Positions 65 to 59,574 of a DNA stretch of 64,000 nt are shown in pieces; the first letter of the stretch is position 1; each line of letters starts with the position of its first letter. This stretch comes from Hexactinellida sp. DTS-2022 (taxonomy: Eukaryota > Porifera > Hexactinellida), in the NCBI GenBank assembly GCA_028753945.1, contig JAPNXP010000009.1, forward strand, positions 4,526,001-4,590,000. The letters run 5' to 3'. Made by a program: the position numbers and the translations under genes. Below the pieces are notes generated by a model, which ran no database searches, was not told where the DNA came from, and was given only the letters and a program-made list of their open reading frames with translations.

Positions 65-655
65 TATATATATCATATATGGCCATTAAAAAAAAAAATT
101 CTTATAGAATCCTTTTGCAACTTTGATCACTTAGTGTGGCCCTTAAATTATCTGAAATCAGAAAAGCAATCATGAGATAGCAGTGTACAAATCACATGCT
201 TTTGTGAAATCGAAATGCAGAAAAAAGTCAACCACTTCTCGAGCTAACCGTCGTAAAGTATTCAATGAAGTGACTAGGTGTGATCCTTCAGCTCATTAAG
301 TCACGTTTAAGGAATGCGAGTCCATGATGTTCAGAGCAAGAAGAGCATCGCAATCTACAATTCCTAAGACTGCGACTGTAATTCAATTTTATGATTAGTT
401 ACCAAAATCAAATTTCGCAATTCATTTAAAGGCTATTGTCGTACTAGGTGAGCGAGTAGCTGTATTTTTTATCGGAAAAATATGCCACTATTGGGAATAT
501 TTGTGATATCCAATTTGATGGCACATTTTATGTGGTGCCAGAACTATTATATCAGTTATTCACGGTCATTCTCAATTGGAAGACACTTTATCCCTAGAAT
601 CCATTGTTTGATGACACATAAAGACGAGGAACTTTACTCTGTTGTGCTAAAAGTG

Positions 656-677
656 CACAGTGGGCAAATCAGCCGTA
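656..677 (+). repeat. Transib copy 1, left terminal repeat
   Basis: Heptamer CACAGTG, then six bases (GGCAAA), then the motif TCAGCCGTA at 669-677. The same motif sits near the right end with a longer spacer. This is probably the transposase recognition site, by analogy with RAG signals. Confidence 0.8.
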
Positions 678-1317
678 TTAGCTAAAATTTTGGAGTCCGT
701 CGATTTGCTCCTAACTTTTCCTATTGAATTCTGGATATCTAACTTTCATTGAAATATAATTCCTTTAGCCAAATTCCTTCTGTCAATTAAAATAACTGTG
801 TTTGAGTTCCAATTATCATGTATGGTTTCTATGCATAATTTCGATTTTAGAAAACCTATAAAGTTCCATCAACTCATCTAAAATATGTATTTAGCTTTCA
901 AGTTGGGTACGTAAACTATATACAGTCAAATTTTGTCTAGTTTCCATCATGTTATTTATCACAACTCTTTTTCTAATGCTTTCAGAATCTCACTGCTTTT
1001 TATAAAACTAATTCTAATAAAGTTATAATAACATAATCACCTACTCTTAGAGTTCGATCTTCTATGGCCCAATTTGTACAACCCAGACAATTATTCTACT
1101 TAATTCTTGAGCTAATTCTCTTAATGTTATATCTTATTGCTAATTGACAAATCCGTGCAGATTTTTTTTACATAAATTCTAAGTTGTCTTTCGGACTAAA
1201 ATTACATCAATTCTGCAAGCTATTATTTCAGTAAATTAATGTTGTTGCTTTTAAATTATAATTAAACTGTGTTGTTTTATTTTGGGTAGTTCTAAATCTA
1301 TTAGTTATAACGAAAAC

Positions 1318-3419
1318 ATGAACAATATTCAAGCATATAACATTCTCGAATCCTGCAACAACAATACTCGTGAAGCGTCAGAACAAATACTCTACGAGTC
1401 CCAATTACCGGAGACAGAATTACCTAGCATACGTTCTAAGTTAATGCATCTCAAGGACACTAGAAGAAAATTTGTGCAGAATGGTGATATAGGGAGTTGG
1501 GAACTAATGCACTTCATTAATATTCCATTTACTCAGACATCGAGCTTGAAGAAGCGTAAGTCATCCGATTTCTCAACTGAGCCGACGCCAAAACTCATGT
1601 TTGAACTTGATTCCAATAAAGAAATCCGAACGCCACTTCTAAAGTTACACCTTCAACAACTTAGACACCGACTCGTGTCACTATTGACACACATAAAGTC
1701 CATAGCTGAACTTGAGGAAGTTACACCAAAGACAGTGGCATCTTTATGTCTCATGCTAATTTCCAATGAAGAAAAGGATTATACTACCAGTATGGAGAAC
1801 TGAACAATACATCCCTGTCTGATAGAAATTCCTTGTTCTTATTGGATTTTCTTTCAATTGGGAAACTCAAGTATCGGGAATTGAGACGTTTTTTAAAGCA
1901 AGATAATATTTTAATCGCATCTTACAACAGAGTTGCCACATTTCGTCAGGACAACTGTGTAGTAAATGAAATGAAATATTTTCACAAAGACCTTGGCACT
2001 CCAGTTGGTATCTACCTTCCTTACAAATTGATCGTAGCGCAAACAATTCGCCAGATAGTTGAGGGGGAAATATCTGAAAATGCTAATTATCCTCTTACCG
2101 CAAAGCTAACTGATGGTTTAGATGGCTCAGGATCACACACGGTTTACAACCAAATGCAAAATCATCCAGACCTCACAACTAAATGTTTTCTCTAGTTCGC
2201 ACTTAAAATACTCTGGCTAAAAGATTCTTTAGGGAACACTTTATGGACGAACCCTTCTCCAAATTCCCCTTTTTCTATGAGACCAGTTGCCATATTGGCA
2301 TTAGGTGAAAGCGAAGATAGCGTTAAGTATTTAATGGATTCTATAATTAATCCTGCTACTAAAAGTTTAAAGGTAGATGGAATCCAATTAACAGCTGGAA
2401 ATGTTAATATCGAGCTCACAAGGTGCTTATTTGATACTAAAATGGCATCTATCTTAGACGGAGCAGGTGGAGCATCTTGCCACTTATGCACATCAACTCG
2501 AGATCAATTGAAGGATATTGATCTTATTAAGCAGGGTTTCCCTATTAACCGTTCAATTGATTCTGCATTTGAGATATTTGAAGACACCGATGAAGAAGAA
2601 TTTCTTTCTCTTTCGAGCAAAGACAGATTTGGAATTACACATAAACCCATATCAGATGAAAATATTCTCTCAGTTTCCCCTCTCCATGGATACTTGAGAA
2701 TATTTGGATGGTTTATGCAACTGGTATACCATTTACAAGCTGGAGAGAAAAAATGGGCACCATCCAAAGCCAAAGTTCGTCAATCAATGGTGTTTGTCCG
2801 TAGCTTCCTCTGGGAAAATATACACATTAAAATAGACTGTCCTTCTACTCAAGGAGGTACAACTTCGACAGGAAATGTGGCTCGGAGTTGCTTTCAACGA
2901 ATGGACGATAATAAGAAGGATTTTTTTTACTGGATCACAACGTTAATTCCTTGTGAATATCACATTCCACTCAACATTATATACACAAATTTAGCTGTTA
3001 TACTGCGTGTATTTAACTGTGACGAGCTAATCGATATCGAAAAATTTACAACATTGTGTAGAGATACTTACGAATCAATAATCGTAACATTTCCTTGGGT
3101 TAGTATCACTCCTACCTTGCATAAGGTACTAGCTCATGCTGCTCAATTGATTGAAGAGTACAATGATGGTAGAGGGATGAAATCATTCTCAGAAGAAGGT
3201 CTGGAGGCGTGTCATAAGCATATTCGACGTTACCGCGAACAATTAGCCAGGAAATTTTCTTTCGAACAGAATATAAAAGATATCTTTATTCGTCTAACTT
3301 CTCAATCTGACTATATCGCATTCTCCCAAAGAAAGCTTATTGGAAGCAAAAAGTGTAAAAAACCATCAAACCATCTTTCAAAAAATGAAGAACTTTTTCA
3401 AAGTTTAGTTATGTTCTAA
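1318..3419 (+). pseudogene. Transib/RAG1-like transposase, lightly broken
   Basis: Cut-and-paste transposase homologous to the RAG1 core. The catalytic acids are all present when aligned with RAG1 D600, D708 and E962: Asp in LTDGLDGSGSHT (codon at 2112), Asp in LFDTKM (2433) and Glu in EEGLEACHK (3204). The zinc-binding CHLC (about 2478-2489) and the HKVLAH pair are also intact, as are the Transib-typical GGTTSTGNVAR and SPLHGYLRIF motifs. Two lesions separate the reading frames: a frame change near 1790, where copy 2 has about 17 more residues, and a TAG at 2193-2195. From 2196 the frame is open to the natural stop at 3417. The first ATG of the N-terminal frame is at 1318. No RAG2-like gene is nearby. 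The C-terminal zinc knuckle seen in copy 2 is not visible here. Confidence 0.85.
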
Positions 3420-3618
3420 TACTAGATTCTTAGTTTATTTCATAGTGAAAAATAACTTGCAACTCGATCATCTGTAATCCATTTATCGACGTATACAACT
3501 AGTATGACTAGTTCAACTATTTCGCTCATAATAATTAAAATATTGGTGAAATGAAAATTTATGAATTTTTGCTATGTCATCACAACAGGAATAATATAAA
3601 TAATATCAATTTTTTTTA

Positions 3619-3830
3619 GTTGCCAATCAACTAGTTATATGTGATAACCCATAGGCAAATAATACAATTAATCCACTAATATCTATCTATAATCCGATTA
3701 CGGCTGTGTACCTAATTTTATACATTGTGCCACGTCATCATAATTCGAATAGTGGAAGCCATATCAAAAATTTTTTGTTGCCAATCAACTCGCTATATGT
3801 GATAACCCATAGGCAACTAATACATTTAAT
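3619..3830 (+). repeat. Direct repeat in the Transib 3' region
   Basis: A unit of about 50 bp beginning TTGCCAATCAACT and containing GTGATAACCCATAGGCAA occurs at 3619-3668 and again at 3777-3826. It lies between the stop codon and the right terminal repeat, so it could be subterminal binding sites or a simple duplication. Confidence 0.7.
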
Positions 3831-3857
3831 AGCCCTAACTTGTACCTAAATACCTAT

Positions 3858-3889
3858 TACGGCTGATCTACATGTTTTTGCCCACTGTG
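3858..3889 (-). repeat. Transib copy 1, right terminal repeat
   Basis: Read inward on the minus strand: CACAGTG, a 16-base spacer beginning GGCAAAAACATG, then TCAGCCGTA. The spacer is 10 bases longer than at the left end, close to one helical turn. Confidence 0.8.
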
Positions 3890-4069
3890 AAGTGAAGGAA
3901 CTTCTTCCTCAACTACAGCTGACAAGCACGATGTCTGACTGGAAAATAGAATCTCGGAATGCTTTTACACATGTTTAACCTCCACGAATCCCATCACGGA
4001 TAAGTTTCAAATCTTTCTTAATTATAATACTTTTCATTGTTAGTTTATCAACTCAGTTAGTTCCTAATA

Positions 4070-5504: not shown

Positions 5505-8500
5505 CGTGACCTACGTAATAAAAGGCCTGATCACCAACTATATATTTCTGGACCATGGATTAATGGAAGGCCATTTTCTTGATCAACCATAATTTTAAGA
5601 ATTGAAATATACATGATAACTATTATCCCCATTTATCTAAGCCAATGTTTCAACACTATTTAGATTTCTTTCTCTACGTTAAAGTATCTTTATTAGTACC
5701 TAAACTTCATCATGTACCTTATTCAACCTCCTATTTATGTTAGAAAACTTTTTATTATTAATTATTAGCACGAATGCCGAATAAATGCTCAGCACCTAAG
5801 TGGAATGCCGAATAAATGCTCAGCACCTAAGTGCAGGAGTAATTACGCTGGCGAGCAACCTACACCTGCGTTCAAGATGCCAGATGCCCCCCCCCCCCCG
5901 AGATCGTTGCTCTATGGAAAGCGTTTCTTCACAGAGAACATATCGAAGACATTAAAAAGATCTACTTCTGTCTGAAACACTTCCACGATGAAGATGTTGA
6001 AACACACTTTTCTATCCCCCAACCAGACGGAACTAGGCTGGAGGTTAAGCGTAGTGTTCCTAGACTTCATAAAGATGCTATCCCAAGAATTCTACCTGGT
6101 TGTCCGAGTTATCTTTCTAACTTAACCCAGAAACAAAATCGTTTGGATCGTTGTACTAAAGAGCGAGACCAGTTGGATGCTGCGATAAAACAAAGCTTGG
6201 AACAACAGAAGGTAGAAGAAGGAAAATTTAAATTAGCTACGCTATGTGAGTTAAAGTCTAAAGTTCATAGTTTGACCCTTCCACAGGATTGGCTAATCTG
6301 GTTACGTGGTGTTAACCAACTACATTTTCTTAAGCCATCTACGTCGCATGAAAATGGTGCCCATTTTATTGAGTGTTCACTCACGATAGACGAATCTTTA
6401 AGTACTAAAGGTTTTTATAACAGTAAACGAATTCCCGTTTCGATAAACCAGATTCGAGACCTTAGAGATATTGAAATCTTATTGAGAGAACTATCTCATC
6501 ATAGTCTTAGTAATGAAATCTCAGATAATGTTTCTAATAATACTTTAAAACTTGTATGTGATGCCACCGAGGTCTTAAATCTCGCGATTGATGAAATATC
6601 CAAGTCAGAACTTGAATCTCACAAAGAAAACAACAAGTAACCTACTATCCAGTTCATACATTGTCAATTAACAAATCTTCTATGTAAAAAGAATCACCGT
6701 AGCTATAATATTGGAACTATAATAATTGCACTAAAATGTCAACTTATCTCTCCAGCCTGCTATCAATATCTACAATCTCTTGATTCTCTCTCGCTTCCTC
6801 ACTATTCAACCCTCAAGCGTTTATATTCAAAATTTGGCTTGGATTGTGAATATAGTTCATTTTTGGAAAGAGCTACATCCCGTTTTAACCAGAGAGAACG
6901 AAACGTGATACTACAGATGGATGAAATACATGTTAAATCAGAGTTAGCATACAAAGGAGGAAAAGTTTTCGGTTCGTCTCACAATACTATAGAACCTGCA
7001 AAAAAGATTTTTGCATTTATGGTTTCCAGTTTATCTAAGAAGTGGTCCACTATTGTACGCCTATTACCATGCTCAAACTCGTCTGCATCGGAATTATTCC
7101 CCATAATAAAGATGGTCATCGAAGATATAGAACGTTGTGGATTGTATGTTCAAGTATTGTGTACAGACAACTACCCAATGAATGTCAGTATCTTTAAATT
7201 GTTTTCAGCGACTAATACATTGAACACTATTGTACCACATATTGTCGATCCTAATCGTTCGTTATTCTTAATATTTGATTTCGTACACATCATTAAATCT
7301 ATTCGAAATAACTGGATCAATCAGAAAGATTCCTGCAGGAGCTTTACATATCCAAACTTCGAAGATTTTCGACTAATTACACTGCTTCATTTGAAAACAT
7401 TAGAACTCTTTATAAGGCTGATCAACATTCTATAGCAAAATTGGCTCCTCGCTTAACAGCCAAAGCATGCTGGCCTTCTAACTTGGAGCGTCAGAATGTT
7501 AACTTAGCGTTCAAAGTTTTTGATGATTCTACTCACTCGGCGCTCAGGCTTCAATATCTTTCATTTCCTCATCTCCATACCTATCATCACACAGCTGTTT
7601 TCATTCGAGTTGTTTGTGATATATGGAAGATGTTCAATATTAACACTCCATCTAAATCAATTCGATTAAACGATCAACTTTGTAAACCATTCGTAGAAAA
7701 CGATCCAAGGTTCTGCTATCTATCACAAGTTGTTGATTGGCTCGAAAAATGGGAAAAATTACCTGGTAAAGCTGGGAAACTTACTTCTCAGACTTTTAAA
7801 AGCTTATGCCACTCTACTTTAGCACTACCTTCAATAGTTAACCATCTTACTCAAAACTGTAACTTATCGTTTGTTCTCACATCTTTCCTACAGAATGATC
7901 CTCTTGAGCACCACTTTGGAATATACCGAATGATGTCCGGTGCTCAATATCATATTAGCTTCTGTCAGATCCTCGAGAGTGAACGACGTTTAAAGTTGTC
8001 AAATATCCTTAAAATATTTTCAAGTGGCGGTTGGGAAAAAGATTGTTCTATCAAAGAATTTATTAATTCTTTTATAGCATTGACAGAATCTCAGCCTGCT
8101 AGTCATTTTCATATTGAACATTTCCTACCCGCTGTGCAGAATTTATCCATCGTTAATGTTCCGACTCAAACTCTTCAGGCACTCGCGTTTATAGCTGGGT
8201 ATACTGTTTATAGTTATTTTAAAAATTCAAACCGTTGTCAATCTTGCTTATCTTTCCTGACAGAGGATAAAGAGATGGAAATCGAGACATCAGAGTCAAT
8301 TTACAAGCTGCTGCAAATTATGGATCGTGGTGCACTGAAATGGCCTTCTGGATTTGTAGTTAATGTAATAGTTTGCTTGTGGCGAATTTTCACATCACTC
8401 GAACAACAGCCCCAACTTTTCCAAGATCTCATTAGAGGACCTTCTAGACAACTTATTGTGAACTTAACATTGAGAGTGATAGAAGACGAAGACAGCGTTT

Positions 8501-8931
8501 GCTGGAGGAATTGTTGCCTGAATTGTCATATTATTGGTTGGGATATATTAAATAAATTACTCACTGCTGCTGCAAATTGTTTTCTCTCGAACAAAATAAA
8601 GAACTTGAATGCTGTGAATAAGAGGCAGGTTGAGCATTCTCGTAAATTGAAGAAGTTTAAAAGTATGTGATTAATTAGTAATGCTACCTATTGATAGTTC
8701 ATCTCTCATCATAATTCACTTAATATTGGAGCTCTTTAGTATTAATTCTAATTTATGTCATCTCTATTTTGTTTCATTTAATTATACCTCTATTTCAATC
8801 AGAATAAAATATTAAAAAAAGTTTTAACTATGTTAATTGGTAGTTTGAATTATTAGGAACAATGGCCTTCCATTAATCCATGGTCCAGAAATATATAGTT
8901 GGTGATCAGGCCTTTTATTACGTAGGTCACG
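5505..8931 (+). mobile_element. P element, copy 1
   Basis: Terminal inverted repeats of 71 bp (5505-5575 and 8861-8931, beginning CGTGACCTACG) are flanked by the duplication GACCAGT (5498-5504 and 8932-8938). The interior encodes a THAP domain and a P-type transposase. P elements usually make 8-bp duplications; here only seven bases match. The two arms are almost identical, so insertion was fairly recent. Confidence 0.88.
5805..8670 (+). pseudogene. P element (THAP9-like) transposase, broken
   Basis: In order: a C2CH THAP zinc finger (CSAPKC from 5805, later CLKHF), a helical region (6143-6640), the RNase H-like catalytic core starting with QMDEIHVKS (about 6916), and the C-terminal part with NDPLEHHFGIYRMMSG and ILESERRLK (about 7890-8000), as in Drosophila P transposase and THAP9. 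Breaks: a run of 13 C (5887-5899) is one base short of 14 (or two over 11) and shifts the frame inside the THAP domain; a TAA ends the helical part at 6638; further shifts occur near 7370-7440. A 31-bp tandem duplication (5772-5802, 5803-5833) duplicates the start codon; only the second ATG leads into the THAP finger. From 7441 to 8670 the frame is open. Confidence 0.85.
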
Positions 8932-10201: not shown

Positions 10202-13200
10202 TTAGTTTCTGTAATTTACGATTATCTTCTCCTCTTGAGGATACATGTGAATTATAATTTTTAACCATGTTGGAGATAAGACAGTTTGAGGCTTCAAAAA
10301 ACAATTTACGTATGATCTCCCAACCATCAGTTTTACTAATTGAGCATCTGTTGCGCCAGGGTTCACTAGAGTCATTCTCAAGGATTCTAATAGACAGACC
10401 AATTAATATTTGCCGAGGTTTTCAGTGACAAATCTTGTCCAGATATCGATATCTTGTCTTAGAGTGATTAGAATTCTCCAAACAATAATGATCGACTCTA
10501 AGACAGAATTTGAAGGCCCACTTCAATGGTCCTCTGTCCAAGATTTCAATGAGCTTATATATTTTAGCTTCTTCTGGATCAAACAATAAGTACTTATCAA
10601 TAATTAATAAACCTTGGCACACACGACAATGCGTTAATTTCTTGTTCTTCAAGTATTGATGCACGCAATAACCTGCAACAAATGTCAAATATTGAAGAGT
10701 TTCGCAACCAATGATTACAGTAGAAATATCTTGTAGCTATGAGAGAAATGGTGCTAAATCTATGATAGGAGAATCACAGACGTCTTCTTTCGGTGAGAAA
10801 GATTTGATAAACGAACCCAGATTATTTTCTTTTGATTAGGGTTCCTGGGAAAACAGTTTCAATATACTAGATATCTTGAGCCGTCGTTCAGTTTCTAGTA
10901 TTTGGCCATATGAGATGTGATAGTTTGATCCAGAGATCATTCTATACAACCCGAAGTGGTGTTCTAGTGGATCTGTCTGGAGGAAATAGGTGAGTACATA
11001 TGAAAATCCGCATTGAGAAGTTAAGTGATTGACTAAAATGGACAGCGCTTCACAAGTATGTTTGAAACTTGTAAAAGTCTGGGGTGTTAATTTACCTTGT
11101 TTTCCTGGTAAGGATCTCCAAGTATATATCCAGTTAACAATGCGAGTAATCAACCCCCAAATCTAGGATCATCTAGTACTAGTTGTTTAGAAAATTCGTC
11201 ATTCAAACGAACGTCTTTGTTCGGCCTATTGACATTAAAAATCTTTCACACCATAACAATTATATCAATGAATTGTGCAGTCTGGTGTATAAACCTTTCG
11301 AGTCGGGGTTCATTAGAAATCTTTAGAGCTGCACTTGTAGAGTCATCAAATATGCGGAGAGCCAATTTAACATTCTGCCGTTCTAGTTTGGAAGGCCAAC
11401 ATGTAGCTGTAAGACGAGGTGCAAGTTTCGCGATACTGTTTTGTTCCAACTTATAAATCGTTCGAATATCATCAAAAGAAGCTGTTTGTAGGCTAAGAGG
11501 GAATCGAGTGCAGTTAGGTAAAAAATCTCCATACTTTGGATACACAAAAGTTTGGTTTTCATTTTTTAGATTCAGCCAATTGTTACGAATCGTCTTAAGT
11601 ATATGCACAAAATCAAACATTAGTACAAGTGATCTGTTTGCGAATAATGGATGAGGGACGACAGGTTGTAAGGTTTTTTGATCAGAGGAAAATAACTTAA
11701 AAATACTTACATTTAGTGGATAGTTATCAGTGCACAACACCTGAACTGAAAATCCACACCGTTCTATATCAGCAATTACCTGTATAATGACAGGATAAAT
11801 AACTTGTGCACTAGTTGTAGAATGATGAGTTAATCGAACAACAGTAGACCACTTTTTGTGCAAACTTGAAACCATTATTACGAAAACTGTCTTAATAGGG
11901 TCGTCAGAATCAACACAAGAACCAATTATTCGCCCACCCTTATAAGAAACATCGGATGTAACGTGAATTTCGTCCATTTGAACAATTACGTTTCTTTCTT
12001 GAGAAAATTTGTAGTTGCTTGATTAGGAGATATGTCCTCAAATTTTCGACACCCGATAACCCCCAATTATTATAGCGTTTTTGAACAGTACAAATTATTC
12101 TAAGAAGGACGTAGAAACTCAGAATTTCTAAATTCGAAAAATTTGAATTAGATATCAATAGTTTAAAATAGCCTAATAGTGAATCCATAGTAGTCAATGG
12201 CATTTCTAGCAATTTTCTTTGTTTGGCGCAAGTTCTAATTTAGTGCCAATTTAACTCTACTCTATTATTCGAAGTTTTCCCCCCACACAGAATTGTCGAT
12301 TTAGATTTTAATTTTTTTTTCTATAGATTTTCAAATAATCACTCGATTTTATCAGAAATTTGGCATTATATAATTATTAACTCTATAACTTTGTAATAAA
12401 GTTTAAAATCGACGGCGGGAAAAAACCTACTACTGATAAGGATCATTTTTGAAGGATAGTTTTTTTCTCTCCGACTTATAGTTTTTGAGATATGAGAGCC
12501 ATACAAAAGTCACTCTCAGGAAATCTTTCAGAATTTTTTTAGTTCAAAATAACGGAGATTTTGACCTTTGATGACTTCAAAATGTAAAAAAAAATGTCCG
12601 AATAAATTTTTTTTTCGGAATTGGATAGATAGTGTATCAAAGTATAGTTGGGCGTTCTAAACGATAATTTTTGCACTTTCAAACAATGTTTATTAATTTG
12701 TGGACCTATCTCCTTATTAAGATAACTCATATAGTCACTTTCTAACCCAATAGAGGAATAAAGTTTTTAAAGTGTATGTACATGAGGGAGAGATAGGCAC
12801 TCTAGAGATTGTAGATATTTGTAGCAGCTAGGAGAGATAAGATGGGATTTCAGTGCCAAAACTTGGCTAAGGACGTTGTATCTTCTGCGGTTCTTGGGAA
12901 TGGTAGAGTTCTCGAGTTGACAAATGATAAACTGAAGGCGAGCTAGTCTAGAAGAATCGTCGAGAGTAGTTGAGTCTCCGTCTATAGATTTTGAAATACT
13001 GACTTCAAGTTTAACAATTGCTCTGTTAATATTTCTACAAGCATTCGTGATGTGTAGCTGTAGCTGAATTAGAGGTAGAATTAATAATTGATTTGCAAAC
13101 GATCTCAGCAATTAGAAGCTCAATTTGTCTAACATCATTTATCACAGGTAATGATAGAGATATAGGCTCTTCTCCCCGGAATGTTGTTACAGTTAGACTA

Positions 13201-13777
13201 GAATAGATAGTCAGGGAAGACAACTGAAATGTGGTGATTTATTTTACAAAGTGATATTAGATGAAATTAACCATCGTTGGGTTGCCAAGACAGCCAATTA
13301 GAAGAAATGTTTTGGGACAATAACTTCTCTTTCAACTCTTCTAAAGTAGTAACACGATAAACCTCTTCTTTTTTTTTGTGAAATACAACTTAGCTGTATG
13401 GCTCGAGTGAAATGATCATACTCCTTTTCCTCAAAAGATAGCCGATGGATAGGAGCTGATGGTTTTGAATAATATGAAGAACAACCAGGTAAGATAGATG
13501 GAACTGCTCCTGTTCGTAACTTAGGTTGGGCTCTTGGGATTTCAGAAAAGGATCCATCAGGATTTGGCACTTTAAAAACATGCTCGATGTCGTCTTCACG
13601 AAAATGTTTAGCACAAACAAAGATAAATTTAAAATCTGTCAAATTAACTCGGCGGAGAGCAGTGATCCATTCCTGGCGTAATTCAGGCGGCTTGTTAGGA
13701 AGTTTAAATACTGGAATAAAAGGATCGTCAGGGTAATAGTTGCTGAAACAATTAGGTGCTGAGCACTTGTTAGGCAT
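10202..13777 (-). pseudogene. P element (THAP9-like) transposase, broken, family 2
   Basis: It starts at 13777 with an intact THAP finger: MPNKCSAPNCFS, the conserved Trp in RQEWITAL, CAKHF and a downstream proline-rich basic stretch. Next come a helical region (13111-12767), then QMDEIHVTS and VQVLCTDNYPLNVS of the catalytic core (11977-11246), then TDPLEHHFGLYRMISG and ILETERRLK (11153-10836), then the C-terminal tail to 10202. An A-run near 13370 (T-run on the plus strand) shifts the frame just after the THAP domain, and roughly 0.5 kb of T-rich sequence (about 12240-12760) interrupts the protein relative to copy 1. Further frame changes separate the C-terminal blocks. Protein identity to copy 1 is only moderate. 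Confidence 0.85.
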
Positions 13778-22393: not shown

Positions 22394-23128
22394 TCACCAT
22401 GATAGGGATTGCTTTGCCTGAATAACCTCGAGCAGAGGTCCCCACAAAGTTCGATGTACCTTGTCTTCATCTGTTGTAGTTCCATACGTCGGGATAGGAG
22501 ATTTCAGCATTGATACAACAGGTTCATAATGTAGGACGAAATTTTTGATGTAAAGATTGGCAGTTGGGCTGTTAGTAGATCTGAGCAAGCTCCAACGCAC
22601 ATGACGAATTACAGACTCTGGCATTCTATAATCGTTGTTAGCAACGTAGATATCGGCATTCAGAATAGCAGAAGCAGCCATAATTTCAACATCACTTCCC
22701 CAAATGGATTCACGATAGATAGCGTTTTCGTGTGTGAGGTAATGACACGGTGTTGTTTGCTTTGATTTAAAATACCATCCAAGTTTTGTTGTCCCTTCAC
22801 TGGCTATAAATCGGCATATAATGGAACGAAGCTGTAGGTGGCTGTTTTCACTCCCAGTAATTATTTTGGAGAGACATCTGAAGAGACAATTACCATCTCC
22901 TTTGATTTTCTCTGTCAGCTCTGGTTCGTATTTGCTTAGTGGCTGTCCAACGAGATCCGATGGTTGCTTGCTAACTGAATCAAATGTTATCCCCAAGAGA
23001 ACACATTTACTACGCTGCCAATTCTCATCTATAACAATAATTTTTGGGTCATCCGGATAGGCATCTGTAATAACGGTTTGATCTTTTTCGTCGAACGTGT
23101 CCCATAGCATTGTATTGAGATACTCCAT
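22394..23128 (-). CDS. OTU cysteine protease exon of Ginger1
   Basis: A 244-residue open exon. The OTU signature KGDGNCLFRCLSKIITGS carries the catalytic Asp and Cys (DGNC). A WGSDVEIMAASAILNADIYV block follows, and the motif FVLHYEPV supplies the catalytic His. OTU proteins remove ubiquitin from substrates; in the transposon it may stabilise the transposase or serve as an accessory function, but that is inference. The 23128 ATG could also be the start of a separate protein. A closely similar OTU, lacking the Cys, is encoded by the MULE at 35560-36236. Confidence 0.85.
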   Translation of the reverse strand: MEYLNTMLWDTFDEKDQTVITDAYPDDPKIIVIDENWQRSKCVLLGITFDSVSKQPSDLVGQPLSKYEPELTEKIKGDGNCLFRCLSKIITGSENSHLQLRSIICRFIASEGTTKLGWYFKSKQTTPCHYLTHENAIYRESIWGSDVEIMAASAILNADIYVANNDYRMPESVIRHVRWSLLRSTNSPTANLYIKNFVLHYEPVVSMLKSPIPTYGTTTDEDKVHRTLWGPLLEVIQAKQSLSW

Positions 23129-49647: not shown

Positions 49648-50622
49648 CTACAGGGTATTGATTTCTAATTTATATACTAAATTATTGAAAATGTTTTCAT
49701 TATGCCTCTTCTTCCAACAGTATTCGGCTAAGTAGGTATCCAGTAATTCAGGATTGGATCTCATTTAATTCCTCATTTTCTTCTTAGCCTGTCCCCAGGT
49801 ACTCTCAATCGTTTGAGTATGTATATCTGTCCCCGGAACTACGAAATGGATGCTATGGTTCACCGTCAAATGAGTAAAGTTAGCTGGAGGAATTAGATTA
49901 TATGATGCCCATTCATCACTTAAGATTGTTGTTCCTGATTTTATATACTGCTCAATGATAGGAATCAAGGTAGCAACTGATCGATCATCCACTAAAATCA
50001 TAAAAGCCTCTTTGGAATATCTGTCAATTCCTCCAAAGAGCCATTTTCCAGATAGTTGTCTACCGCGATGGTATTTCCTCCTTCCGAATTTGCTTTCATC
50101 AATCTCTACTATATGTCCAGGACCACCAATTGGTTCTGGGTTAGCGAGGTATCTTTCAACACAGAGATCACGTAAGAAGTTTTTCCAATCGGTGATGGTA
50201 GCTGTTGCCCATACCAAATTCTTGTGTAAAAATTTGGTGTCTTGTAGGCCTTCAGCCCAAAAATATAAAAACTCTACAAGTTCTGTTAATGACAAGTTTG
50301 ATCCTTCAAAAAATGATCCTACTCGTCGATGTGCAAACTTTTTGCAGTTTTTCTTAGGACATCTCCAGCCCAACCCATCAATGACTTTTGTGAAAATTCC
50401 CTCGCGCATATCTGTGCCGCACTTACAAATTATACCTCTCGCTAAGAGTTCGTGAACTCTCAACCAATCGGTAGACGTATCTTCATTGATAGTGATTTGT
50501 AAGAATAGTTCCTTCAGGTTCATTTCCTCAATGTATGGAAAAGTAGAGGGTAACATAATTGGGGTAAATATAGGCGTCGCCATAATAAAGTGAAGAGATT
50601 CAAGTTGTCGAGTCGAGTACAA
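49648..50622 (-). pseudogene. Merlin (IS1016/ISXO2-like) transposase, one stop
   Basis: A 285-residue open frame from 50622 contains the zinc-ribbon-like part (CKCGTDM and CPKKNCKKF) and the DDE core of the IS1595/IS1016 type. Asp is in HIVEIDESKFGRRKYHRGR, Asp in TTILSDEWASY, and the end motif is HTQTIESTWGQAKKK, with Glu after a histidine block. An in-frame TAA at 49765-49767 follows KKMRN; the same frame then stays open for 38 more codons (NPELLDTYLAEYCWKKR) to TAG at 49648, which looks like the genuine C-terminus. Either ATG 50622 or 50583 could be the start. Terminal repeats and the 8-9-bp duplication typical of Merlin were not found by eye. Confidence 0.85.
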
Positions 50623-55680: not shown

Positions 55681-56685
55681 TCACAGCAACTTACAGCCTG
55701 CTCGTCAGGTGCATGGAGAATTGGAGATGCTCATTCGTGCGCTTCACGATCTCCGTTCCTTGGGTATGTATGAGCGCTTTACATAATCCTCTATTACCCA
55801 TCGCCAATGCCATCACCTCTTACTCTCCTCCTCTGACACTGAAGGTGCAGCTACCAAAGAAGTTGGACAGTAATCACATGCGGTAGCTGCACCTTCAACT
55901 TACTTTTAATGGGTTTATACTCAATATTAACAAGCTTCTCGTCCGCGCTTCGCACAGTGGTTTAGGGCAGTCTTTACGGAGAAAATTCATAGACTCAAAA
56001 AGCCAATTTTATAACTCTATTTGATACATAATTGTTTACATATAATGTATATCATATAGGGAGTGAATTGAAAGCCTATTACGTAGTACTGTACTTCATT
56101 TGTATAGTCAAGTCTTACATACTTTCAACATGAAAATTAAATATTTTGCGGTTGGGAAAAGTAAGAAAATTCACATTCTTTAAGTTGCTATCCCAGACTC
56201 GATATCCTTGTTGCTACTTAACATTGAGTATCTAATTGTTGTCTTTATACCTCCATTATGCTAGATTTTCCTCTTGCTTTGAAATTTTCTCTTTTGAACT
56301 TGCGTAGATAAAAATATATCTACTTATAATCTTAAACTGGTCGCACCTAAGACAAGTTCGAATGATTCTGTGATCAACCTCATAATTTATATAAACAACA
56401 TATCACTTTTATAGGACCCGCTTCGATGCGAAACTTTCTCAAAATTTTAAATTCCATTGTCTATTATTCGTTGCTAGGCAACAATAAATCTGCATACTTA
56501 TTTAAAAATACAACATACACATTCACTAGGGTAAATACTCAATGAAAATATTACATTTCTAAATTGAATTAGTAAATTTATATCATACTCTCAATTAATA
56601 ACGGCTGAGGCTCCACTTCCAAAAAACCGCCGTGTTATTGCACTAGTTTTGAAACAGAATTAATTTTGCATTCCTGACACCGCTT

Positions 56686-59315
56686 ATGAAATAATTGTTA
56701 TCCTCAACTTAGATGAAGAAAAACATGATTCTGTTACTTCTTTACTAAAAAGGATTCAAACCCACATTAGAAAATCCAAGGAAAATGTTGACCAACTGAA
56801 TACCGAATGGTGGAATTGCCCAATTCCATGGAAACCAAAAACCTTATGCATAACCCCTTTAGATACTTCTACTTCTTTATTTACGCAGTCTAATGTAAAG
56901 AAGAACCTTTTTTCTCATCGCTTACTACAACGCATAAGGTTATCTTCTATCTTAGAACAGATCAGAGAAACGGCTACTATCGAATGTTCTACCCCTTGAA
57001 ATTGCTGCACTGGCATTACAACTTTTGGCTAACGAAGTTGATAATCGTAAAACTGCCAAGGTTGCTAAAGAAATTGTCAGTAGTGGTGTGTTTAGTGGCA
57101 TAAATTTAAACTATGTACCTGTTGACAAGGCTTTATTCTTGCTAGACTTGCTTGAAATCGGCAGGAGAAAGTACACTCATCTTCGCCAAACCTTATTGCC
57201 GGAGAACATACATTTTCCATCTTACAGCAAAGTTGCAGATTTGCGAAACGAGTTGGTATCAAGAGATTTAATACAGCTTTATCCAGATCCTCATCAATCG
57301 ATCGGTGTACAAACCCCCTACTTCATCCAGGTTCAAAAAACTATCAAAAGGATTCTCTCTACATTGAATCCACTTGACAATGAAGAGTATCCACTTACAT
57401 TCCGTATCGCAGATGGTTTAGAAGGTAACGGATGTCATACCCAGTGAACGGTCACAGATCATTTAATGAGTCTATTTAGTTCATTATATTTTCAGATCAA
57501 TCATAAATTGCAAGGGAAGTTCAATCAGTTCAATTATTTAACTTTTCTAAATCGATCAACTCAAATCAATATATACTTAAATTTAAACTTCATTTTCAGA
57601 TCAAAAGTTCATTTTCAGATCAAAAACTCACTTTTAGATCAAAATTAATTTATCTTGTCTTCAACTAAATCCATATTAATTACACTAAAAGTTATACTAC
57701 ATGGAATCTTAGATTAAATAAATGAGAAGAATTGCATTTAAATGTTATACGTACGTCTAACATCAAATAAAGATAATATTAAGTTCCCAAGATCAAAAAT
57801 TCATTTTCAGATCAATAACTCATTTTCAGATCAGAACTCATTTCAGATCAGTTTCAGATCATTTCAAATTGTAGGCAGTTCAATCAGTTCAATCATTTTC
57901 TATTGAATAACTAAATCAAATCAGTTCAAAAATTGATTGATTTTTCAGATCAAAATGATTTGATTTAATCCTGGACTCATATCATTTATAATCAAATTAA
58001 GTTATTAATTAATTAACACTAACACAAACACTAAGAACTTTATTCTATTCTGTTTCAAGCCGATTTCCATTTGTACAGCTTCAAATAGAGTAGTTTGGCA
58101 AAACCAATCCCACAATTCCCCTTTCTCTCAACGACCTGTATTTCTTTGCGCTTCGAAAGAATGTGAAGAAAATATTCATATATTTATGGAAAATCTGATT
58201 AATCCAGAGACTAAAAAACTACAAAATGGAATCTCTTTGGAGAAGGTTGATCTGTGAAGGTTGATATCATTCGATCTATGTTCGACGGGAAGATGGCTGC
58301 GATATTATCTGGAGTGGGAGGATCCAGTTGCTAAATGTGCACAGCTACTCACAATGATTTAAAGGATCGGAAATTAGTTGTTTACGGTTTTCCCATTAAC
58401 AGAACGATTTCTGATGCGATTCAGTTATTCGGGGAACTGGAAGATATTGAATCTTTCTTCGCACTTCCATCTAATGACCGTTTTAATTTAACTCATCTCC
58501 CCATCTCTACAGTTAATATAATTGCTGCTTCTCCACTTCATTCATACACGTGTATTTTTAGGTGATTTAATCTTTTAGTCTACCACCTGCATATTGGAAA
58601 ATTGAAATGGTCCCAAACCTCCTTTGTTATCAAAGATTCGATAAAATTCATTCAAAAAATAGTCCAAGATAAAACTGGGTTGAGAATTGATCAACCAGAC
58701 TCTAGTGGTGGGACAACCTCGACTGGAAATGTTGCGAGAAGTGCTTTTTCAGATGATTCCCATTTCATTGAATGCGTTATATCTACTATATCTGTCGAAC
58801 ACCATTCCGCTTTATCAAAACTACGCGCTCAACTTGCAGCAATATTAAAGATTTTCAATTCCAGCCAATTAGTAAACACGTCTGATTTTGGAAAGCTGTG
58901 CAGCGACACATATCTCTTAGTGTTAGATTCGTTTCCTTGTGCAAGCATTACGCCTACTTTACACAAACTTCTAGCTCATTCAGAACAACTTATTCGAGAG
59001 AATAATTCAGGATATGGCTTAAAATCTTTCTCAGAAGAAGGAACAGAGGCCTGTAACAAATTGGTCCGGAAATATTGAGAAAATATATCTCGGAAAAACA
59101 GTTTTGAAAGCAATATTATCGATATTTTTGTGAGGTTAGCGTCACAAAGCGATTCAGTCTTAGTGGGATATCGGAGAAATTTATTCTGCGAAAGATGTGG
59201 CCAATCAGGACATACAGTGAGAACCAAGTGTTATAGAGTAGAGGCCCAACATCGCTCCCACCTAGTGGCTCTAGTTTCTTCGTTACTCATTTTTGCAGAC
59301 GTAAATCTTGTGTAA
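56686..59315 (+). pseudogene. Transib/RAG1-like transposase, heavily broken
   Basis: Collinear with copy 1. The N-terminal helical part (56686-56996) ends at TGA 56997; after a frame change come PVDKALFLLDLLEIG and RIADGLEGNGCHT (first Asp, about 57414). The catalytic Asp in MFDGKM (about 58280), GGTTSTGNVAR (58710s), TPTLHKLLAH and the Glu in EEGTEACNK (about 59045) are all visible. A C-terminal zinc knuckle CERCGQSGHTVRTKC (59188-59232) is of the kind found at the C-terminus of invertebrate RAG1-like transposases. Lesions: an insertion at about 57448-58020, TGA near 58254, TAA inside the zinc CxxC (58332), and TGAs near 58562 and 59076. Confidence 0.8.
57448..58020. repeat. TTCAGATCA-rich insertion in Transib copy 2
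   Basis: About 570 bp with a dozen copies of TTCAGATCA or ATTTTCAGATCAAAA and several TCAATCAGTTCAA. It separates GNGCHT from the next conserved block of the transposase. No clean target duplication was seen. Confidence 0.65.
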
Positions 59316-59574
59316 TAATGTGTTTAATTTATTCTAGTTTGTGCTGTTGGTTGTAAATTAACTACAATCCAATTACTAGTGTAATTATCCCTTACTAGAA
59401 TATAATACATTCCGATGACTTCATAACTTTTAAAATAGAAAACATAGAAGTTTTTGAAATCACCAATGGACTCGCAGGTATCGATAACTATATCCAAATA
59501 ATACTAAACTAGTGTATAGTATGCACTCAGATACCTAATGTTTGCTAACTATCATTTTAAACCACTGGGCTACG

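Follow-up and report, generated by a model that had tools for sequence, protein, structure and literature searches.

The vertebrate RSS consists of the heptamer CACAGTG and the nonamer ACAAAAACC, separated by a spacer of 12 or 23 bp, with box ends at 28 and 39 bp and a difference of 11 bp. Outside vertebrates, asymmetric TIRs have been described in every Subgroup I Transib and in some of Subgroup II (PMC9435367), and 12/23-like unequal ends are cited for Drosophila Transib5 and Anopheles Transib2/N1/N2/N3 (Kapitonov and Jurka 2005, as cited in PMC8355894). AanRAGL of Aureococcus has 13-bp and 10-bp elements lying 4 or 13 bp apart (PMC9435367). PMC8289069 describes the TIRs of HzTransib as symmetric, calls most Transib ends symmetric as well, and reports that the asymmetric pair of TIRs is the one preferred by ProtoRAG. 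In two further papers, 12/23 selectivity is argued to need RAG2 (PMC8355894), invertebrate RAGL enzymes are expected to respond rather little to TIR asymmetry (PMC7204232), and some authors connect the rise of the 12/23 rule with RAG2 or with vertebrates (both).

Because PMC9435367 and PMC8355894 already report unequal Transib ends, asymmetry in RAG2-less Transibs is not a new idea, and the element described here, probably from a glass sponge, is a well-supported instance of it. In the accessible parts of the open-licence papers compared, we met no precedent for a genome-scale two-length spectrum, for the matching of differing boxes between ends, for a right-end module, or for the loss of a CCHC tail without a change of geometry. 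A search by titles and abstract beginnings, restricted to the open-licence PMC literature, brought up nothing on Transibs of glass sponges.

The window element and its transposase

Positions 656-3889 of the window (the whole 64-kb stretch of DNA analysed) hold a Transib copy that is worn and non-functional, its reading frame being broken into three pieces (Table 1). An earlier note on this DNA had claimed CACAGTG and an inner motif at both ends, gaps of 6 and 16 bp and a perfect 5-bp duplication outside, and all of this was confirmed at exact coordinates. The box core is common to the two ends, which read CACAGTG-6-TCAGCCGTA on the left and CACAGTG-16-TCAGCCGTA on the right. An exact heptamer followed after 0-30 bp by TCAGCCGTA (at most two mismatches) occurs at two places in the 64-kb window, the two ends of the element. 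In the closest-matching copy, on contig C13, the transposase is also broken, and the flanks form no target-site duplication (TSD).

Table 1. Coordinates of the features of the Transib copy in the window
Feature	Position	Strand	Remark
Left target-site duplication AAGTG	651-655	.	Identical to 3890-3894
Left heptamer CACAGTG	656-662	+	Read from window letters
Left inner box TCAGCCGTATTAG	669-681	+	6-bp spacer; box end 26 bp from tip; right-end match at offset 10
Transposase piece 1, N-terminal part	1282-1803	+	Ends at stop; covers region matching RAG1 NBD in relatives
Transposase piece 2, with TDGLDGSGSH	1833-2195	+	First catalytic aspartate by alignment
Transposase piece 3, 380 aa	2277-3419	+	LFDTKMAS, ZnB C..C, HKVLAH, SEEGLEACHK
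Second TATGGGTTATC copy	3643-3653	-	Within 158-bp tandem duplicate of right end
Decayed inner right-end signal, CACAATG-15-ACAGCCGTAAT	3697-3729	-	End alignment
Diverged window form of TATGACGTCA block	3733-3741	-	Intact form present in other families
Right-end module block TATGGGTTATC	3801-3811	-	Begins 78 bp inward from tip
Right inner box TCAGCCGTAATAG	3854-3866	-	16-bp spacer; box end 36 bp from tip
Right heptamer CACAGTG	3883-3889	-	Read from window letters
Right target-site duplication AAGTG	3890-3894	.	Identical to 651-655

The positions D, D and E, which we take to be the catalytic triad of a Transib transposase, are kept in the transposase alignment. A search with piece 3 retrieved HzTransib (6pqn, E 1.9e-18) and the RAG1L of ProtoRAG (6b40, E 3.7e-7), and HzTransib was the best match of the catalytic core both in sequence and in fold. 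The profile of the relatives' nonamer-binding domain (NBD) matched the RAG1 NBD structure 3gna (E 2.7e-4), its best 16 matches all being RAG1; this likeness is established on the relatives' profile. By structure comparison (Foldseek), model residues 92-673 aligned onto RAG1 391-1008, and the HzTransib chains aligned from model residue 163 or 164 only. The Pfam RAG1 profile gave 16.8 bits on the window transposase, which is under the cut-off, and Pfam alone is insufficient to name the element. All 11 named matches among the 71 from the transposase search came from the glass sponge Oopsacas minuta, so that, judged by transposon proteins alone, the host is probably a glass sponge.

Each of five complete elements holds a single ORF of at least 100 aa, with 266-1062 bp between its stop and the right end. 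No second gene, and hence no linked RAG2L, was found inside these five, and the extra ORF near family A lies in the left flank, outside the element. A search of the genome with PF03089 (RAG2) gave 0 matches, and its control likewise gave 0 anywhere. The homology to HzTransib and RAG1, together with the single-gene elements, bears out the RAG1-like, RAG2-less Transib-type identity proposed in the earlier note, and by its homologous DDE transposase, its 5-bp TSD and its CAC-starting ends the element is assigned to the Transib superfamily as a RAG1-like member without a RAG2-like gene.

The alpha11-alpha12 region of the ZnB is present, with 48 residues (406-453, family A) against 13 (242-254) in HzTransib; helices are predicted in this region of a relative, and window 2277-3419 keeps its length. 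The CCHC tail (CTT1) is absent by eye in the window family and its clade and present in families A and B and in several homologues, and Pfam zf-CCHC matched 5 of the 16 members weakly, with an E of 0.03 at best. Since the CTT1 tail is missing in its clade, we would not file the window lineage as a strict Subgroup I member and class it as Subgroup-I-like. Family G (C2:3228723) is a more distant Transib, with 28% identity to the sequence that heads the transposase alignment. In a tree of a subset, family G takes in a Hydra homologue and stands as sister to the clade that holds the window family.

The window contains other remnants of mobile elements. A second decayed Transib, of the F2 type and resembling C5:3979919, lies at 55953-59569 (+) with the TSD CTTCG/CTACG; it has a transposase remnant with stops at about 58251-59207, and a heptamer region common to its ends with no clear inner box. 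At 6839-8670 (+) and 11246-11977 (-), a TNP-like RNase H was detected in ORFs 6839-7435 and 11246-11977, the latter also having a GTP-binding insertion domain, and ORF 7441-8670 (+) had no Pfam match. We presume that the two matching ORFs are P-element-like transposase remnants. In addition, there are a THAP-domain ORF (13298-13777, -), a DDE_Tnp_IS1595-type transposase ORF (49765-50622, -) and an ORF for an OTU-like cysteine protease (22394-23128, -), the last possibly part of another mobile element.

Two signal lengths and their pairing across the genome

The genome scanned comprises 112 Mb in 18 contigs, and the scan counts are lower bounds. The pattern CACAGTG-N{0,30}-TCAGCSGT gave at least 53 matches genome-wide (2 for the reversed control), with a gap of 6 in 25 cases, of 16 in 24 and of 15 in one, the remaining three gaps being 21-25. 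When one mismatch was allowed in each of heptamer and box, a set of 62 loci, merged into 43 segments and taken together with the window, yielded 70 matches, 29 at gap 6, 26 at gap 16, 4 at gap 15 and 11 elsewhere; the loci had been picked mostly by similarity to the window ends. The whole-genome pattern scans were made independently of that choice. CACAGTG is fixed by the pattern in the genome scan, and it was also present in most ends where one mismatch was allowed.

Other families carry a different box. The pattern CACAGTGG-N{0,30}-GGRARTAG gave at least 820 genome matches and none in the control. Among the 100 matches listed, which follow genome order, 42 spans were short (24 bp in 1, 25 in 4, 26 in 37), 57 were long (34 bp in 2, 35 in 33, 36 in 22) and one measured 42 bp; thus, 99 of the 100 span 24-26 or 34-36 bp, and none falls between 27 and 33 bp. 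With CACAGTGG-N{0,30}-TTCGAATAG, at least 24 matches were obtained, 9 at 26 bp and 15 at 35 bp (control 0). There are two discrete signal lengths, of about 26 and 35-36 bp, with almost nothing between. The earlier note had read its single copy as a one-helical-turn asymmetry. The genome-wide check of copies upheld this part of its interpretation, as the 6/16 spacing is fixed across copies of the family with left and right ends distinct, and the difference is 9-10 bp, about one turn, in most related families. A search for relatives in sequence sets outside this genome gave 106 pattern matches in genome contigs and 52 in viral contigs, none of them confirmed.

The ends of 17 elements were fetched as family representatives. 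Their TSDs were exact in 12 cases and four-of-five in one; in one case (family H, both ends present) no TSD matched, and three elements had one end only. No left end was found for families E and G and no right end for D_C1; a further stretch upstream of G, and another distant element that was fetched, likewise gave no left end. The left box of 13 representatives was matched to the right end at all offsets, shuffled right ends serving as control. W, M, B, C, Cp, D, F3, F4, H and I matched best at an offset of 9 or 10. In family A, the best offset tied with offset 0 because the first 18 bp are identical at both ends; F1 had a weak box match that tied with other offsets, and the F2 type (C5:3979919, window 55953-59569) shared the heptamer with no clear box at offset 9-10. 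The left box fitted its own right end best or tied in 11 of 13 rows (D, F1, F3, F4 and I tying with another family); the left box of B fitted the right end of H slightly better than its own, and that of F2 fitted five others better. Taken singly against shuffles, 7 of the 13 representatives reached P<0.05, A and I stood at about 0.05, and D, F1, F2 and F3 failed. The 13 rows are related (W and M form one family, and B/H and F3/F4 have similar ends), so that they do not count as independent events. As judged from these alignments, the letters of the box vary between families, while in most families both ends have like boxes and the distance is kept.

At the loci of the window family (W/M), 28 convergent pairs lie within 6 kb, and 15 of them have a TSD of 4-5 matching bases (13 exact, 2 four-of-five). 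All 15 combine a short with a long end, 14 being 6/16 and one 6/15. The other 13 have fewer than four matching TSD bases, and several of them re-use ends already counted in another pair; one of these poor-TSD pairs is 16/16 (C17:828938/830018, 2 of 5 bases). In the GGRARTAG class, the matches listed form 30 convergent pairs within 5 kb, of which 27 join a short to a long end, and the other three comprise a short end with the 42-bp end, one short-short and one long-long pair, each of the last two overlapping a short-long pair. Nine convergent pairs were found among the matches listed of the TTCGAATAG class, all short with long. The pair counts of these two classes rest on the orientation and position of the ends.

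A composite unit at C17:1413538-1415167 (1630 bp, TSD CACCA on both sides) begins with approximately the first 24 bp of the left end (one mismatch), continues with host sequence that flanks another copy, at C17:1428019-1429145, and ends with the whole of that copy; the two loci have 1600 bp in common at 99.9% identity. Since this unit moved with only about 24 bp of left end, heptamer, 6-bp spacer and box seem to be sufficient as a left end. A short inverted repeat lies just inside the outer left end of the unit.

A conserved module at the right end

The right ends of 14 representatives share a module of about 160 bp, in which 61 of 230 alignment columns are at least 85% conserved, against 17 of 231 columns in 12 left ends, where one weaker shared block lies about 90-110 bp inward. 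These end alignments were made without F2, J and the second copies of A and B, E and G are represented by right ends only, and M_C2 was dropped from the right-end alignment. The conserved blocks of the module are AAATGTATTATTTGC-TATGGGTTATC and GCTTC...TTATGACGTCAT. The TATGACGTCA block is one that we take to be CRE-like. The right end of family G has its box end at 36 bp and parts of the module.

An exact form of the module, TATRGGTTATC-N{42,72}-TATGACGTCA, gave at least 130 genome matches and none in the control; its length was 79 bp in 80 among the 100 matches listed. Within 200 bp, it accompanies 18 of 73 long ends against 0 of 51 short ends (124 listed ends), at a distance of 77 bp in 15 cases, 76 in 2 and 84 in one, the 42-bp end. 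By list, it was present at 8 of 58 long ends of the GGRARTAG class (50 without) and at 10 of 15 of the TTCGAATAG class; as module matches are listed up to contig C13, four module-less ends of the 15-end list lie outside the range. The exact module marks long ends, and most of the listed long ends of the GGRARTAG class have a diverged form or none.

Neighbouring copies of the module were 158 bp apart in 18 of 20 cases and 157 bp apart in 2, among the matches listed. Tandem repeats of two or three copies (157-158 bp, about 15 helical turns) were observed in several families, for example at window 3643-3811, C1:2800444/2800602 and C13:2919834-2920233; in the window family, the duplication of 158 bp includes an inner signal that has decayed. 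The exact module is also kept by some elements that have no room for a full gene (e.g. C1:2800367-2802173, 1807 bp), which argues for a role that would be exerted in cis rather than in gene expression.

Proposed mechanism, alternatives and known systems

We consider it likely that these elements are cut-and-paste Transibs of the long, NBD-bearing type, whose bipartite ends differ by about one turn and whose near-far pair would synapse best. The transposase family would recognise a bipartite end made of the heptamer and a family-specific inner box, the box ending 25-26 bp from the left tip and 34-36 bp (mostly 35 or 36) from the right tip, and hence offset by about one helical turn. The transposase dimer may grip both heptamers alike, with the paired NBD-like domains tilting toward one near and one far box. 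Synapsis of the near-far pair would then mark left and right and disfavour like-like joining. Kept at fixed distances, TATRGGTTATC and TATGACGTCA of the right module could form an accessory binding site needed in cis. The F2 type stands outside this scheme, and the absence of the exact module from most of the listed long ends slightly lowers our confidence in it. The pairing preference would be one read from surviving elements, and the whole resembles a two-signal system passed on by descent, comparable to that of vertebrates but lacking its partner protein.

The pairing data can also be read in another way, which we find quite conceivable while not preferring it. The asymmetry would confer end identity only: the right end would be complex, the shift of 9-10 bp would give room for a contact with the host or with a second transposase, and like-like products, under no ban, would be rare from the closeness of the ends of one element. 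The 160-bp module on right ends, the excess of conserved columns there (61/230 against 17/231) and the fixed distances of the exact module all speak for this, and natural elements are all L...R, so that proximity and preference are inseparable in the pairing data. However, end identity leaves unexplained by itself why a one-turn shift is kept despite diverged boxes and spacers, and the shift is also present in ends lacking the exact module.

If, on the other hand, a single ancestor had unequal ends by accident, these could have been inherited with no selection on the difference. The families are indeed all related (tree of a subset), so that the counts are not independent. This account is nevertheless improbable in our view, because neutral indels would blur a two-length pattern that is the same in three box classes, with 0 among the 100 matches listed between 27 and 33 bp and with boxes that agree at both ends in most families. 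A 10-bp indel confined to the window copy, or a chance likeness of motifs, is next to inconceivable, being ruled out by the genome scans with their controls and refuted as well by the three box classes and the TSD-flanked pairs. We retain the preferred synapsis of a near-far pair as our reading.

Beyond this reading, it is a rather doubtful proposition that the one-turn rule (26 with 35-36 bp), acting through an NBD homologue in RAG2-less Transibs, was the ancestor of the vertebrate 28/39 (12/23) rule before RAG2, close to the algal 27/36, and that the module with its presumably CRE-like palindrome (in 158-bp repeats in some families) was a built-in forerunner of the job of HMGB1/RAG2. With its natural left and right ends in the hundreds, its several classes of box, its intact genes for the transposase and its RAG2-free elements, the lineage allows one to ask directly whether a RAG2-less transposase tells the short from the long end via its NBD. 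Moreover, the diversity of boxes constitutes a natural data set for the joint evolution of NBD specificity and DNA box.

The vertebrate 12/23 RSSs resemble these ends in CACAGTG, an inner box, two signal lengths that differ by about one turn and an NBD homologue. However, the nonamer ACAAAAACC is absent here, boxes vary by family, the spacers are 6/16 in the window family, box ends lie at 26/35-36 rather than 28/39 bp (9-10 instead of 11 bp apart), and there is no RAG2. ProtoRAG of amphioxus, according to PMC8289069, has a protein like RAG1, asymmetric TIRs that contain two conserved elements and a 5-bp TSD in common with our elements, whereas its spacers are 27/31 bp (a 4-bp difference) and a RAG2L gene is present. 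The ends of Drosophila Transib5 and Anopheles Transib2/N1/N2/N3, compared by the description in PMC8355894, have a heptamer and a nonamer-like element and stand near vertebrate RSSs.

HzTransib (6pqn, 6pqx) shares the catalytic core in sequence and fold; its solved chains, in contrast, show no counterpart of the NBD or N-terminal domain, and its ZnB is shorter. AanRAGL differs in carrying RAG2L, in its first element CACACCCAAACCT and in its other box, yet its second element ends at 27/36 bp (sum of published lengths), compared with 26/35-36 here. For the Subgroup I Transibs (Tao et al. 2022, PMC9435367), the main text names no glass sponge among the hosts and mentions no conserved 160-bp right-end module, and the clade of the window family is without the CCHC tail by eye. 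These Transibs are nonetheless like our elements in being RAG2-less, in the long ZnB alpha11-alpha12 region, in asymmetric bipartite TIRs, in the 5-bp TSD and in the CTT1 CCHC tail, found here in families A and B.
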